Below are positions 21,513-47,795 of a DNA stretch of 64,000 nucleotides, one piece after another (position 1 is the first letter of the stretch; every line of letters starts with the position of its first letter). The stretch comes from Limanda limanda. Its lineage: Eukaryota > Chordata > Actinopteri > Pleuronectiformes > Pleuronectidae. The notes under the pieces are model-generated. The model saw nothing but the letters and a program-made list of their open reading frames with translations. It ran no database searches and was not told where the DNA came from. The position numbers and the translations under genes were made by a program. The stretch spans positions 27,944,900-28,008,899 of the forward strand of contig NC_083638.1 of assembly GCF_963576545.1 (NCBI RefSeq). The letters are read 5' to 3'.

Positions 21513-21719
21513 CCGACACACAGTGTTGGGAAGGATACTTTCAAAACGTATTCCGTTACAGAATACAGAATACATGCCCAAAAATGTAATCTGTAACGTA
21601 TTCCATTACATTAACTAATCTGAGTAACGTATTCTGAATACTTGGAATACTTCCGGTTTGTATTGCATTTTTTAAGTGTATGATTGCCGCGTTGTTATAG
21701 TCAGTGGAGCAGCAGCAGT

Positions 21720-21761
21720 TTAAACTCTCTCTCCGCCGATGCGGCGGGCCAGCTGGATGTC
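21720..21761 (-). pseudogene. histone H3 gene fragment (C-terminal end)
   Basis: On the minus strand this reads DIQLARRIGGERV followed by TAA, matching the last 13 residues of H3 (DIQLARRIRGERA) and its stop codon, with two substitutions (Arg to Gly, Ala to Val). It is in the same orientation and order as the larger H3 fragment at 22325-22558. Residues about 99-122 are missing and replaced by the 560-bp spacer. The histone 3' stem-loop expected just after the stop is not visible. Confidence 0.8.
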
Positions 21762-22324
21762 CGGCTCCCATCCACTCCCACCTCTGTGCCGGCCCCACCG
21801 GAGGCTGAAGGACCCCCCCCCCCCCTGCGCCAAGGCTGCCTCGCGCCGTGCTACGATCGTTTCGGCGTCGAGTCTATTTTTTTTTGCGCTTGACGCGAGC
21901 GTATCGCTCCATGAAACACACTGAAAAATGATTTTAAACGATATTGATGACATTTTATATGATATAAATGATAAAGTATGCATCCCATAGTTTGTATTCC
22001 CCTTCTGTTGTCCTGGAGTTTTAATTTTACCAATTTTACCGATCATATTATTAAATGCCCCCCTCTGCCCATCCACTACAGACACACAAGCAGTCATAAA
22101 GATGAAAAGAGAGGGGGGGGCGGAGAATACGTAATTTACCCTCGACACCCGACATTGAACGGAGAGAACAGCGGAGAAGTTCTTGAAGATGGATGAAATT
22201 AAATTGGGACGCTGTTGCAGTTAATGTTGGAGCAACAAGTGAACATATGCTTTTATACTACTGGGTCAACGGGTGATATTATTAGCGCTGCCCGGCGCTT
22301 CAGCGTCCGGTGTGAACCCGGCGT

Positions 22325-22558
22325 GCCTCGCTGGTCTCCTGCAGAGCCATGACAGCGGAGCTCTGGAAGCGCAGGTCGGTCTTCTCTCACCAGGTGCTGG
22401 AAGGGCAGCTTGCGGATCAGCAGCTCCGTAGATTTCTGGTAGCGACGGAACTCTCTCAGAGCCTCGGTTCTTCTTCACGCCGCCGGGGGCCCGGGCGCTC
22501 TTACGGCAGCCCTGGTCTCCAGCTGCTTCCTGGGGGCTTTGCCGCCGGTGGATTTACG
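22325..22558 (-). pseudogene. histone H3 gene fragment (N-terminal to central part)
   Basis: Read on the minus strand, the segment begins at the codon for Arg8 of H3 (RKSTGGKAPRKQL) and runs through pieces equivalent to '[21 protein letters not shown]', '[15 protein letters not shown]' and 'SEA' near residue 98. Two internal deletions (about 21 bases in the PHRYRPGT region and about 17 bases in the IAQDFK region) plus single-base changes break the frame, so it cannot make a histone. Nucleotide identity to typical fish H3 coding text is visibly high, so the capture is not very old. The first seven codons, the start codon and any promoter are missing. The fragment lies wholly inside the hAT element at 21521-22730. 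Confidence 0.85.
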
Positions 22559-22738
22559 AGAGAGTGAATAAACTCGAGAAGTACCGTCATGTAATCCACT
22601 GATTTCAACAATGTAACTGTATTCTGAATACCATCTATTTAATTTGTAACTGTAACGGAATACAGTTACTCATAATTTGTATTCTAAATACGTAACGCCG
22701 TTACATGTATTCCGTTACTCCCCAACACTGCCGACACA

Positions 22739-41147: not shown

Positions 41148-42842
41148 TCAGGTTGAGTAAGAGACATTAATCCCTGTCACCAGCTTTTGGATTTTCTCTT
41201 CATTCTTCAGTATGTTGGACTTCACAGCACAAATCTTGTCAAGCTCGTCTGCAGTCAGCTGCTCCAGCTCAGCTAGTTCTGCTTTCAGAGGATCCAAAGT
41301 GGGGTCAGTCGCTCTGTGCTCCTCTAGCAAGGCCTGTGCATGCTCCTTGTTAACCTGCCGCCAAGTGTGATGTTCAGTCAGCATGGCATCCGTGTCCTCC
41401 AGGATGTTGTCCATGATCTTTCCTAAAGGAAGGAAACTGCAGCTAACCGTCTGAATGGATGAATGCAGCCACTCGACTTCCCTCGTCACTGCATCCTCTT
41501 CTTTCTTCAATGCTGCTTCAGAAACCAAGTTCTGCTCTTTGGACTCGGGGCATGATGGCGACAAGTCTACCTTTATATCAGGAGCATGTGGGGGTGGATG
41601 GACAGTCGCCTCCTTGAAAAATTGCTTATCTTCACCCTCCTCATCCTCAGAGAGCTTCTCCCTATCCATTATAATAGGTACTGGGTTTATGGCACTAAGG
41701 AGTCTCCCAGCTAAAGTCATACCAGGGTAAGTCTTCTGTCTCTTGAACCGAAGAGTTTCTGGGCAAGCCCTGCTGGGAGCCATGTCAGATTGCACTAAGG
41801 AGACAACGGTGTCCCCATTTTTTGGAGGAATAGAGCTCTGAGGTAACTTTGCATCTCTGAATCCCTCCCTGACCGATTCATCTTGTTCTCTAATTTTACA
41901 TCTTTGCCCCAGCCCTTCAGCAGATGAAGGCAGGGGTTTTCTACCTGGATTTTCAGAAGCTGGTACAGGTTGGGCTGTTTTGCCCCAGCCCTCTGTTTCA
42001 GCTGGAACCTTGGCCTTACTTTTTCTATTTACAGTTTTGTTGCCCTCTTCCCCCTGTTTGGGACGCTCCCGCTCTTTGTCTCTTTGTTTTTTCTTGTCTT
42101 TTTCCATAACTCTGGAGGAGTCTTTCTCCATGTCCTTTTCCCTTTCTCGATCCATCTCTCTGTCCTTCAAATTTTGCCTGTCTTTATCTCGTACCTGGTC
42201 TTGGCTTTTGTGTTTGTCACATTCTTTGCCATGGTCCTGTGCACTGGGGGGATGTTTGTCAGAGCATTTCCTGTCCCTTTGGTGCTTCTTCTCCACATCC
42301 CTCAGTCTGCGCTGCTGCTCTTTGGGCTCGTCTGGGAGATGGTTACCCTTGCAACTGTGCTTTGTGATCTTTTTGCTTTGTTCACATTCTTCCTTCTTCT
42401 CGTTCATTTTTCCATTGCCCTGGGTCCTGGTCCTCATGTCCACTTTTTTTCCACCAAGTACTTGCTTCACTGCATCATTACTTGACATTTTGTTGAGGCA
42501 ACACTTGGCGATGGCCTGCAGCAGCTCATTGGTTTTCTCAGGGTGATGACCAGCTATAATCTCTGATGGCTTTGCCAGCAGGGCCTCACCACTCACCAGC
42601 ATCACAACATCTATGGCTTTCTGGAGGAAGGCTATCTTGGATTGCCTATCCTTAATGTTCTCTAGAATCATTTCATTCTCTTCATACAGGCCTCTCATAA
42701 AACCAGTGTCCCTGATGACCTCAGTGAAGATGTCATGGAGGTATCGAAACGGGGGTCTGTTCAGCAGTTTCGGTTGTAGAGGAGTTTTCTTTATTACTTT
42801 GCTGAGCATGTGCTGGGTCTCTTTCACTACTGCCACATTCAT
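41148..42842 (-). CDS. traf3ip1: intronless traf3ip1 (IFT54 / MIP-T3) copy, retrogene
   Basis: The 564-residue product matches TRAF3IP1/IFT54, an intraflagellar transport complex B subunit that binds microtubules and tubulin and is needed to build cilia; in zebrafish the family gene is known as elipsa. Residues 1-130 carry the N-terminal calponin-homology-like domain, with the family signature PPFRYLHDIFTEVIR at about 31-45, FLQKAIDVV at 73-81 and KTNELLQAIAKCCL near 104-117. Residues about 135-290 form the long Lys/Glu/Arg/Asp-rich linker. The last ~110 residues are the conserved coiled coil (LPLGKIMDNILEDTDAMLTE, then LKAELAELEQLTADELDKIC and NILKNEEKIQKLV) that binds IFT20 and TRAF3/DISC1 in the family. 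The usual gene has many introns, whereas this copy has none, which marks it as a retrocopy. It has no stop or frameshift over 564 codons, and the start context is good (G at -3). This suggests selection kept it. It could still be a young pseudogene. Confidence 0.93.
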   Translation of the reverse strand: MNVAVVKETQHMLSKVIKKTPLQPKLLNRPPFRYLHDIFTEVIRDTGFMRGLYEENEMILENIKDRQSKIAFLQKAIDVVMLVSGEALLAKPSEIIAGHHPEKTNELLQAIAKCCLNKMSSNDAVKQVLGGKKVDMRTRTQGNGKMNEKKEECEQSKKITKHSCKGNHLPDEPKEQQRRLRDVEKKHQRDRKCSDKHPPSAQDHGKECDKHKSQDQVRDKDRQNLKDREMDREREKDMEKDSSRVMEKDKKKQRDKERERPKQGEEGNKTVNRKSKAKVPAETEGWGKTAQPVPASENPGRKPLPSSAEGLGQRCKIREQDESVREGFRDAKLPQSSIPPKNGDTVVSLVQSDMAPSRACPETLRFKRQKTYPGMTLAGRLLSAINPVPIIMDREKLSEDEEGEDKQFFKEATVHPPPHAPDIKVDLSPSCPESKEQNLVSEAALKKEEDAVTREVEWLHSSIQTVSCSFLPLGKIMDNILEDTDAMLTEHHTWRQVNKEHAQALLEEHRATDPTLDPLKAELAELEQLTADELDKICAVKSNILKNEEKIQKLVTGINVSYST

Positions 42843-42935
42843 GGCCGTGCACTTGTCCTCGAGCCGTTTCTCTCGACAGGTTCACGGATAGTCACTGCTT
42901 TGCTCATTCAGATCTGTTGGGGAAACAGAAAAAAT
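42843..42935 (-). promoter_or_regulatory. leader with splice-acceptor-like site upstream of traf3ip1 copy
   Basis: On the minus strand a pyrimidine tract ending TTTCTGTTTCCCCAACAG is followed at 42913 by ATCTGAATGAGC, 71 bases before the ATG at 42842. This is a strong 3' splice site. If used, the retrocopy would have an untranslated first exon upstream, a common way for retrogenes to gain a promoter. No convincing partner donor was located; a CAAG/GTAAGC match exists at 45059-45064 beyond the pdcd5 copy. Confidence 0.35.
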
Positions 42936-44476: not shown

Positions 44477-44839
44477 TTAGTCATTAATATCGTCATCTGA
44501 GTCCATCACCCTCTGTCTGTTGAATTTGACAGTCGTTTTTTTCTCTGTTTGTTGGCTGACTTGCTCTAGGATTTCGATCAAGCTTGACTCAGAAATCTTT
44601 CCTCCCAAGTTCCCTAAACGAGCCATCTGAATGAGATAGTTTTCAACTGCAGTGGCCTTCTCTGGCTTCACCAAAGCAAGATTGCTTAATCTGGCACGGG
44701 CAGACTGTTCAAGAACTTGGGCCAATATCGAGTTCCGCGTATCAGTTTCTCTTTGTTCGGCCTCCTCTCCTTGCTGATCATTTGGAGCATCCCCTCGTTT
44801 TGCCTGAGCCATCCTCTGTTGCCGGATTGCCTTTAGTTC
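44477..44839 (-). pseudogene. pdcd5: intronless pdcd5 copy, start codon lost
   Basis: The frame gives a close match to PDCD5 (programmed cell death 5), a small nuclear/cytosolic protein that promotes apoptosis and binds the TRiC/CCT chaperonin. Conserved blocks are [55 protein letters not shown] and [16 protein letters not shown], ending in an acidic tail. The homology starts earlier than the first ATG: codons from 44839 read ELKAIRQQR, matching ELEALRRQR of the family, but the normal Met-(3-4 residues) start is missing and an in-frame TGA lies just upstream. Translation could only start at Met 44812, making 111 residues instead of about 125. The parent gene has introns, so this is a retrocopy. 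The otherwise intact frame leaves open a truncated functional product. Confidence 0.88.
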
Positions 44840-46379
44840 GCGGCCCCAGCCTTGTTTTCACAACAGGAAGATGGAACTAAAAGTCTGAGATGGGATGAAA
44901 GAGTGTCATAAAGGTCCTAAACCTCTCTTTCAGTGTTATGTTTACTTTTCTGGTTCTTTTTAGCTACTTCCCTTGATGTGACTGGATTTGTAGATGATTC
45001 CATTCGCTACTGTATTCCCAATACTTTTTCTTTGTTTGGTTTATTCTTCAGCTGTAGTGCTTACCTTGTTTGATAAACATGTGGATCAAAGACATGACAT
45101 ATGGGAAGACAATACGACACAATCAAAGACAACATGCATTATCAAAGGCTACATGTGATGTATATTATTTTGGAACAGGGAAATGGAATAAGGGCTTGCT
45201 CGGTCCACTCCATGCATCGACCTGCCCTACAGGGTCTGGACACTGGTGGTCGCTGATGAAATCTAGCGAATATTGAGGATCCAAATGAGATGTGACAACT
45301 CAGCTAAGCTTTACCAAGGCACCGAATAGGGGGTTAGTAGTGGAGAGGAAGGTCACAGTGAATTAATTGTGAGATTACAGCCGTCAGCAACATAGAGGAG
45401 AACAAATTTAAAGTTTCAGAGTAATTACATGATTGGTTGATGTAGGTCATAGCAAAATCTGATTGGATCATCGTGAACAATGGACAGTCAGCTGAAAATA
45501 GAGCAGGCCCAATGCCATTTCACCCCTTGACCCTAAACCCTTGTTTTCGAGGGTTATCTTGCCCCTTGAAATGGAGTCACAAGGGGTTGTCGTTGAAATC
45601 TTTCCCTACGAATAGGGATCGTTACATCATCTTCAAGAAATCGTTACATCATCAGTAGTCTTTGACATAAACAGATGAAAAAAAGTGTCGCTGGTATTCC
45701 AGTTTAACTGGGTATCTTGGCAACTGATGATTTGTTGTCTTTATTCTAGATGTTGTGGGTCGGTTGCAAACTCGGTCGCAGATTAGTCGTTTTCACAAAG
45801 CGCTTGTGTGTGAAGTGCGGTGATACACTGAAGGTCTCGTTGAAATAAATAAATACGGATTAATATATGTCCGTATCAACATCACGTTTAGACAATATAA
45901 ATCATATGGGTTAAACAATAAACAGGATTTAAAACGACACAGTGAAGCAGTATTATATTCTGGACTGATGACCATCTCATTAAACCACAGAGCCATTGAG
46001 ATAACCAGTGTGCTTCACCTGAGCGTGCATGGACTTCTGTGGTTTCATACTATTGGATTAGTTGGATTTAGGCTAAGTATATTTTTTAAATAAGCTTCTC
46101 TGCTAGAATACTATTGTATCTGCTGTCTTAGGTTAACTAAATTGCTAGTTTGTAGTGTTTTGTCTTACCTTGAATTGTATGAGCTAGGATTTTGTTTCAG
46201 TCAAGTGTTGAGTTAAAAAGAACCAGTTAGAGTTAAAGTTCTTGACTTTTAATCCAATTCAATTTGAATATGTGTTTACTTCCTTTCTCACTCATGCATC
46301 CTAACTCTGCCAGACACTCCCCTTTCTACTCTGTCCTCCTCTCTTGATTCTCTCTGTCATCTTACGTCACAACAGGTCC
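44840..46379. other. noncoding stretch, possible DNA-transposon debris
   Basis: The text near 45505-45620 ('ccccttgaccctaaaccc', 'cgagggttatcttgcccc', 'ttgaaatggagtcacaagg') resembles the end region of a widespread fish DNA transposon family, but I could not find the ends or a target duplication. The rest is unassigned. Confidence 0.35.
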
Positions 46380-47795
46380 ACAAGTCCTCCCCAGGTCCGT
46401 GGTTGTCGGACTCTACAGTGAGCCACTATGTTAGCATCAGAACTGTCAACTACTAAGATGACATACGCTCCTCATTTTCAAATCCACCTTCTGTAACTAC
46501 ATTTCCATCAACTTTATCTTCATCCCCTTTCGCTTTCCTCTTTCATCCCCCTGTCTCCCAACCAAGTTCTTACCTTGGTAACCTCTGCCCGCCCAATCAC
46601 CTGCCCCCTTGACCCCATCCCATCTCACATTCTCCAGTCTATTGCTCCCGAGCTTCTTCCTTTTCTCACCCATCTCATCAAAACTTCCCTGGCAACTGGC
46701 TGTTTCCTTAACTCTCTGAAAGAGGCAAGCGTTAACCCTCTTCAATAGAAACTCTACCCTCAACCATCCTCCTATCTCCATAATAACAACCTTCTTGTCT
46801 CTCACCAGTGTAGTTTCAAGGCAGGCCACTCAACTGAGACCTCCCTCCAGCAACTTCGCACAGCTAGAGCAGCCTCTCTCTCCTCCGTCCTTATTCTTCT
46901 AGATCTTCCTGCTGCATTTGACACAGTGAACCAACAGATCCTGATCTCATCCCTTCAGGACCTGGGTGTCTCAGGCTCTGCTCTCTCCGTGCTCTTATCC
47001 TACCTCAACGACCGCACTTACCGGGTAACTTGGAGAGGATCTGTGTCTGAACCTTGTCCTCTCACTACTGGGGTCCCTCAAGGTTTTGTCCTTGGTCCCC
47101 TCCTTTTCTCTCTGTACACCAACTCTCTCGGTCTGTCATTCTCTAACATGGCTTTTCCTACCACAGCTATGCTGTTGACACCCAACTAATCCTCTCTTTT
47201 CCCCAATCTGAAAAACAGGTAACAGCACAATTCCATGCCTGTCTGACTGACATCTCTCAGTGGATGTCCGCACACCACCTGAAAATTAACAATGATAAGA
47301 CTGAACTACTTTTCCTTCCAGGGAAAGACTCTCCCACCCACGACCTGACAATTACCTTTGACAACTCCGTGTTAGCCCCCACCCAGACTGCTAGAAACCT
47401 GGTTGTGACAATCGACAGTCAACTCTCGCTGACTGCCAGCATTACAGCAACAACACGTTCCTGTAAATACATGCCGCACAACATCAGGAGAATACGTCCA
47501 CTTCTCATTCAGAAGATAGGTTCTGGTCAAGGCCCTGGTCATCTCACGCCTCGACTATTGCAACTCCCTCCTGGCAGATCTACCTGTTAGTGCCATCCCA
47601 CCTCTGCAGCTCATCCAGAATTCAGTAGCTCAACTGGTCCTTAACCAACCTAACTTCACTCACACTACTCTGCTCCTCTGCTCCCTTCACTGGTTACCAG
47701 TGGCAGCGGGCATCCAGTTCAAAACATTAGTTTTGAAACTAAAAACACATCTCTTCCGACTATGTATAACACCCCTGTTATCTGGAACTCAAAAC
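46380..47795 (+). mobile_element. L2-type LINE, 5'-truncated, inactive
   Basis: Translation pieces follow fish L2 (Maui-like) reverse transcriptase: 'DPIPSHILQSIAPELLPFLT', 'KAGHSTETSLQQLR', 'ILLDLPAAFDTVNQQIL', 'LSYLNDRTYRV', 'TTGVPQGFVLGPLLFSLYTN', then after a frameshift near 47155 'YHSYAVDTQL' and 'DISQWMSAHHLKINNDKTEL', and ending with 'LKTHLFRLC'. The catalytic YADD motif reads YAVD at about 47165-47176, so one of the two essential aspartate-box residues is changed (Asp to Val). The endonuclease domain is missing at the 5' side. Stops also occur upstream (near 46745). The element is therefore a dead copy. A piggyBac-like relic abuts its 3' end. Confidence 0.88.

Follow-up and report, generated by a model that had tools for sequence, protein, structure and literature searches.

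A probable Pack-hAT family with captured histone H3 cargo in Limanda limanda

Capture and amplification of histone H3 by hAT transposons has been published for fungi, namely for Pseudocercospora fijiensis and its relatives and for Pyrenophora tritici-repentis (PMC6710886). That study reports 8-bp duplications in P. fijiensis and C. zeae-maydis and infers that what was captured in the former was a transcript or retrocopy (PMC6710886). In animals, a survey of 100 genomes lists 370 Pack-TIRs, 208 of them hAT-associated and only four multicopy (PMC8277862). The window analysed here, a 64,000-nucleotide stretch of the Limanda limanda genome, contains an element that we regard, with high confidence, as a copy of a young, multicopy, non-autonomous Pack-hAT family with captured H3 cargo, assembled stepwise.

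As in the fungal elements, a hAT transposon, a captured H3, many copies and a remaining intact host gene are found together (PMC6710886). In contrast to the P. fijiensis elements, which are ~9.5 kb long and possess a transposase domain, the window family is ~1.2 kb and non-autonomous, and its damage consists of deletions and a 562-bp replacement as opposed to repeat-induced point mutation (PMC6710886). Whereas 23 of 26 P. tritici-repentis copies appear coding, the consensus of the window family lacks an open H3 frame (PMC6710886). An independent origin from the fungal H3-hATs is assumed. Among animal elements, Pack-hAT-N8_XT of the western clawed frog likewise has hAT termini around a host gene piece, with distinct duplications; it is present at three loci and carries a 5′ untranslated piece, while the window family has at least 62 insertions with core-histone coding text, to which a second DNA piece was later added (PMC8277862). 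The Pack-MULEs of plants are also non-autonomous and capture and spread gene fragments, but belong to another transposon superfamily and another host kingdom (PMC8277862). The first-pass annotation had called such a family in fish unusual, a view to be tempered given the published fungal cases (PMC6710886). A literature search of titles and abstract openings, with partial coverage and few subscription papers, found no H3-carrying hAT from fish or other vertebrates. The multicopy Pack-hAT kind is thus already known, and it is the copy number, the core-histone cargo in an animal and the preserved stages that are notable here.

Structure of the window element

The element spans 1210 bp, starting with CAGTGTTGGG and finishing with CCCAACACTG. 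Direct reading confirms these ends, as well as a perfect 8-bp duplication on both sides, in agreement with the first-pass annotation. Short terminal inverted repeats beginning with CAG are typical of hAT transposons, and both termini are of this kind. A scan of the window for exact 10-bp inverted pairs within 3 kb, bordered by an exact 8-bp direct repeat, returned this pair and its duplication as the sole match, with none in 20 block-shuffled windows. The terminal 10-mer alone is common in the window (5 matches at ≤1 mismatch versus 5.3 expected); the similarity of the two ends extends past 10 bp, with a local score of 36.5 compared with a maximum of 25 in 200 shuffles. An Rfam scan of the window gave no matches. 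The layout is as follows, with the boundary between the left terminal part and H3 set by alignment to a host gene (L090):

21513..21520, no strand: left 8-bp target-site duplication CCGACACA, read directly
21521..22730, minus strand (as for the H3 text): the whole non-autonomous hAT-type element, a Pack-hAT with H3 cargo
21521..21689, no strand: left hAT terminal part, with inverted repeat CAGTGTTGGG and repeated GTATTC/GTTAC motifs
21690..21762, minus strand: H3 3′ piece with codons ~122-135, followed by the stop TAA (21720-21722) and 30 nt of the 3′ untranslated region
21763..22324, no strand: interrupter of 562 bp, in place of 72 nt of H3 (codons ~99-122)
22325..22560, minus strand: H3 5′ piece, codons ~7-98, disrupted by frameshifts and small deletions
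22561..22730, no strand: right hAT terminal part, finishing CCCAACACTG
22731..22738, no strand: right 8-bp target-site duplication CCGACACA, read directly

The H3 text lies on the minus strand and is scattered across several reading frames, with a stop within the aligned frame; residues 8-25, 26-37, 46-73, 79-98 and 123-135 are represented, and 10 of the 91 comparable residues differ from H3. When compared with H3 by tblastn, residues 2-74 and 80-99 jointly gave an E-value of 1e-22, and residues 124-135 alone 0.078. Of the three H3 pieces submitted to Pfam, two matched the Histone domain (PF00125), one with a score under the curated cut-off. At residues 87-90 the text has S-A-V-M, like the best-matching PDB chains (H3.2). 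H3 residues ~8-98 and 123-135 plus stop, in the same orientation, had been recognised in the first-pass annotation and are confirmed, while the extents of the two pieces are corrected to 22325-22560 and 21690-21762, the latter including the 30 nt of untranslated sequence.

The CpG observed/expected ratio of the element is 1.00, compared with a median of 0.35 elsewhere, and was reached by none of 1208 other windows of equal size, which suggests a recent arrival of the block as a whole. A methylation-decay clock based on the H3 residues was dropped; no date is taken from these residues because a CpG transition fits only one of the 10 replacements and the damage is largely family-wide.

Other features of the window include a 577-aa uninterrupted frame at 41148-42881 (minus strand) with both MIP-T3 domains (PF10243 and PF17749), presumably encoding a TRAF3IP1-like protein. 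This protein is multi-exon in vertebrates, and the single open frame therefore suggests a retrocopy. Within 2 kb, an uninterrupted 126-aa PDCD5-like frame (44477-44857, minus strand; PF01984), whose best PDB match is programmed cell death protein 5, is perhaps a second retrocopy. At 46749-47590 (plus strand), a broken retrotransposon reverse transcriptase is found; two overlapping frames match PF00078, of which the second falls short of the cut-off.

Genome-wide copies and age of the family

The copies were sought in the host's own genome, a single assembly of 717 Mb in 336 contigs. With the whole element as query, the best 40 places of 1814 first-look candidates were scored, at 93-100% identity; when these were inspected with their flanks, both ends were present in 39 of 40, and the 39 duplications, of which 37 are perfect and two have one mismatch, were all different. 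The best 40 places scored for the 5′ H3 piece (of 827) were all element copies, 38 of them with both ends. Pooling both queries yields 64 distinct places, 62 with both ends, and among these best-scoring places H3 is present in every copy having both ends (62/62). The end probes were 18 and 17 bases long and matched with at most one mismatch per end, except in one copy (L079), which differs from the 18-base left probe at 6 positions, yet has a perfect duplication. Across the 62 complete copies, 60 duplications are perfect and two have a single mismatch, as expected of the hAT-type element proposed in the first-pass annotation; 61 are distinct, and the one found twice, TATATATA, lies inside TA repeats with unlike surroundings. 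At the target sites, position 4 is preferentially a purine and position 5 a pyrimidine (55/62). The copies are not segmental duplicates, since no pair of them shows similarity in the 90-bp flanks. Only the best candidates were scored and H3-bearing ones favoured, making 62 a lower bound and not a share of the whole hAT family.

Both ends could not be found at two of the 64 places, L010/L051 and L082. The former (C3:28028325-28029519; C numbers denote contigs) lies 60 kb from the window copy and is identical over 1195 bp, but lacks the final 15 bp and with them the right inverted repeat; this truncation may reflect an aberrant local event. When flanks were joined to search for an empty site, neither the window nor the fetched stretches contained a match.

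The target-site duplications indicate transposition, and the presence of H3 in all 62 complete copies, together with perfect or near-perfect distinct duplications, demonstrates that the composite moved as a unit, as the first-pass annotation had supposed. That annotation had also proposed a count of copies with the same ends, different duplications and H3, by which a lack of further H3-bearing copies would reveal a one-off insertion: the count is 62 complete copies with 61 duplications, all carrying H3. We therefore give next to no credence to the idea that an ordinary hAT copy at this site acquired H3 and other DNA by gap repair and did not move thereafter. Most animal Pack-TIRs are indeed single-copy and made by gap filling (PMC8277862), but for the window element this is contradicted by the 62 complete insertions, which share the H3 pieces yet differ in their flanks and have 61 distinct duplications. 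Gap filling is a likely route of the first capture. Three features of a Pack-hAT are found: a host gene piece between the ends, perfect H3 genes elsewhere, and multiple copies with distinct duplications.

On nucleotide divergence, the family of composite copies is young, since the 62 copies differ from their majority consensus by a median of 0.8% (maximum 4%; ≤1% in 39 copies). Five pairs among the 62 are free of substitutions, and the CpG observed/expected ratio is 0.96-1.03 in 39 copies. In an alignment of 39 copies, nearly all columns with at least four deviating copies belong to H3 or the interrupter; the left end contributes two and the right end none. No open H3 frame is left in the consensus of the 39 young copies, and residues 103-121 are covered by none of the 62 complete copies; an H3 protein from the family was rejected accordingly as a candidate. 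Judging from these sequences, the H3 text of the young copies would be a passenger, and H3 protein is not expected.

Source of the cargo and order of assembly

A search of the genome with the H3 protein (best 150 scored of 1720 first-look candidates) gave 153 matches. At least 20 are full-length and perfect (residues 1-136), comprising 10 in a tandem array on C23, eight on C12 and two on C1. The arrays extend over C23:11408640-11523097 and C12:3493655-3564073, with a spacing of roughly 11.5 to 16 kb. More than 100 matches are partial; judged by their spacing, some are exons of intron-containing H3-like genes, and others coincide with element copies or end likewise near residue 77 or 99-102. 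The alignment of the captured segments to host H3 genes, put forward in the first-pass annotation, was carried out with four host genes and seven element copies. The closest of the four to the window copy is the C23 gene: the 5′ piece differs from it by 12 mismatches and 38 gap positions, and the 3′ piece, which extends beyond the stop codon into 3′ untranslated sequence, is identical at 71/73 positions. Two C12 genes come next (13 mismatches; 69/73 in the 3′ piece). The longest perfect run against the C23 gene is 54 nt for the window copy and 68 nt for four older copies. The cargo thus appears to derive from an H3 gene that most resembles the tandem, replication-dependent type of the host.

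Two complete insertions hold an uninterrupted H3, and four older places (on C19, C18, C6 and C17) ranked first with the C19 copy as query, followed by H3 genes and then by pieces (best 40 scored of 890). The C19 copy (C19:6381017-6381815) is 799 bp long, with both ends and a perfect duplication, CCTATCCC; its H3 matches at 396 of 420 nt, without gaps and with one stop. The C18 copy (L110, matched at C18:23062886-23063650) is 780 bp long, again with both ends and a perfect duplication, CCTACAGA, and an H3 match of 394 of 422 nt. In both copies H3 runs from codon ~7 to 30 nt beyond the stop, at 93-94% identity to the C23 tandem gene. When aligned loosely, the C19 copy extended to the ATG, and capture from the start codon was considered; it was rejected and the segment start is given as codon ~7 because the stricter alignment of both copies starts there. 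The other two places are partial relics, on C6 with 399/421 nt of H3 and 19 extra bases, its left end not found in the fetched stretch, and on C17 with a left end and H3 residues 9-111. The comparable H3 codons of the C18 copy are stop-free, but there is no H3 start. These codons are part of an open frame of 169 aa, in which K23M and K27M occur; given the missing start codon, the survival of the frame is probably due to chance.

The bases directly after the captured segment in the C23 gene are GGCTCTTTTAAGAGCC, which we take to be the histone stem-loop, and the transposon departs from the gene at the first G. The captured H3 of the C18 and C19 copies hence ends where the stem-loop starts and passes directly into hAT sequence. 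This bears on whether, instead of being cargo, the H3 text is a tandem pseudogene or processed retrocopy into which a hAT inserted. Replication-dependent H3 genes are intronless, so that a DNA copy and a retrocopy look alike, and a match on C1 (L097) comprises H3 residues 50-136 with no hAT ends in the 701 bp fetched. Against this, H3 lies between hAT ends in all 62 complete copies, it stops in the 3′ untranslated region before the stem-loop in the C18 and C19 copies, and none of the fetched copies has H3 continuing outside the terminal repeats. We consider this explanation extremely unlikely as compared with captured cargo.

Compared with the old form, the young composite has lost 72 nt of H3 (codons ~99-122), with 562 nt present instead, and has acquired small deletions. 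With the interrupter alone as query, 29 of the best 40 places scored (of 1642) were copies already fetched, 10 were newly fetched composites with H3 and the hAT left end, and the remaining one has an H3 match beside it. A nested transposon with its own inverted repeats was considered for the interrupter. Its short ends are alike (score 14.5, equalled by 5 of 1000 shuffles), but this reading was dropped because the longer ends are unlike (score below the shuffle mean of 15.7), inspection by eye found no target duplication and 72 nt of H3 are missing. A 166-aa frame over the interrupter has one protein match, P0001 (94 aa, from an ENA contig of 2018 bp; 90% over 60 aa), which looks like a translation of interrupter-like DNA and indicates that related DNA exists elsewhere. 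Protein searches with two other frames gave no match, and no relatives were found in the viral_contigs, genome_contigs, plasmids and phages collections at the sensitivity used.

The existence of older copies without the interrupter (C18 and C19) makes capture, transposition of the plain form, splitting and a burst of the composite the simplest order, and bears out the suggestion of the first-pass annotation that H3 was captured whole and later split by ~560 bp. In the first step, a hAT element would have taken up ~420 nt of an H3 gene, the boundaries of which are observed; the act of capture may have been template switching during repair or replication. Template switching in gap repair or replication is the published capture model for such elements (PMC8277862). 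The end of the captured segment at the stem-loop suggests that the hairpin may have been the switch point defining it, in which case genes with a stem-loop would be preferred cargo. The element with uninterrupted H3 would then have transposed, leaving the old insertions that are observed with their own target duplications. In one lineage, 562 nt presumably replaced 72 nt of H3 and frameshifting deletions arose, as seen in the state of the present copies. Finally, the damaged composite would have been recently amplified to at least 62 complete insertions by a hAT transposase acting in trans. A genome search with the hAT dimerisation domain (PF05699; best 150 scored of 1081 candidates, all matches listed above cut-off) found several matches in open frames of 512-1088 aa, any particular one of which would be a candidate source.

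Possible effects on host histones

It could be asked whether H3 was kept because it is useful to the family, for example through RNA interfering with histone messages or with silencing. The perfect matches to a host H3 gene, 54 nt long in the window copy and 68 nt in four older copies, would suffice for small-RNA pairing. In contrast, replacement changes are at least as frequent as silent ones (12:11 in the C19 copy and 14:10 in the C18 copy, with silent changes of the gene lineage also counted), so there is no clear sign of constraint on H3, and nearly all subfamily-defining changes among 39 copies are located in H3 or the interrupter. A retained function is thus very unlikely, and H3 would be a passenger in the young copies. 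That transcripts or small RNAs from young copies pair with germ-line H3 messages, and that the burst of the family is tied to such pairing, is a separate proposal that we consider unlikely.

The family records a core histone gene being captured, carried, broken, extended and amplified, with relics of the stages within one assembly. The family is also a natural system in which to ask whether histone text dispersed by a transposon gives rise to small RNAs, gene conversion with the tandem H3 genes or mis-annotated histone genes. After the fungi, it represents a further case of a hAT transposon meeting H3.
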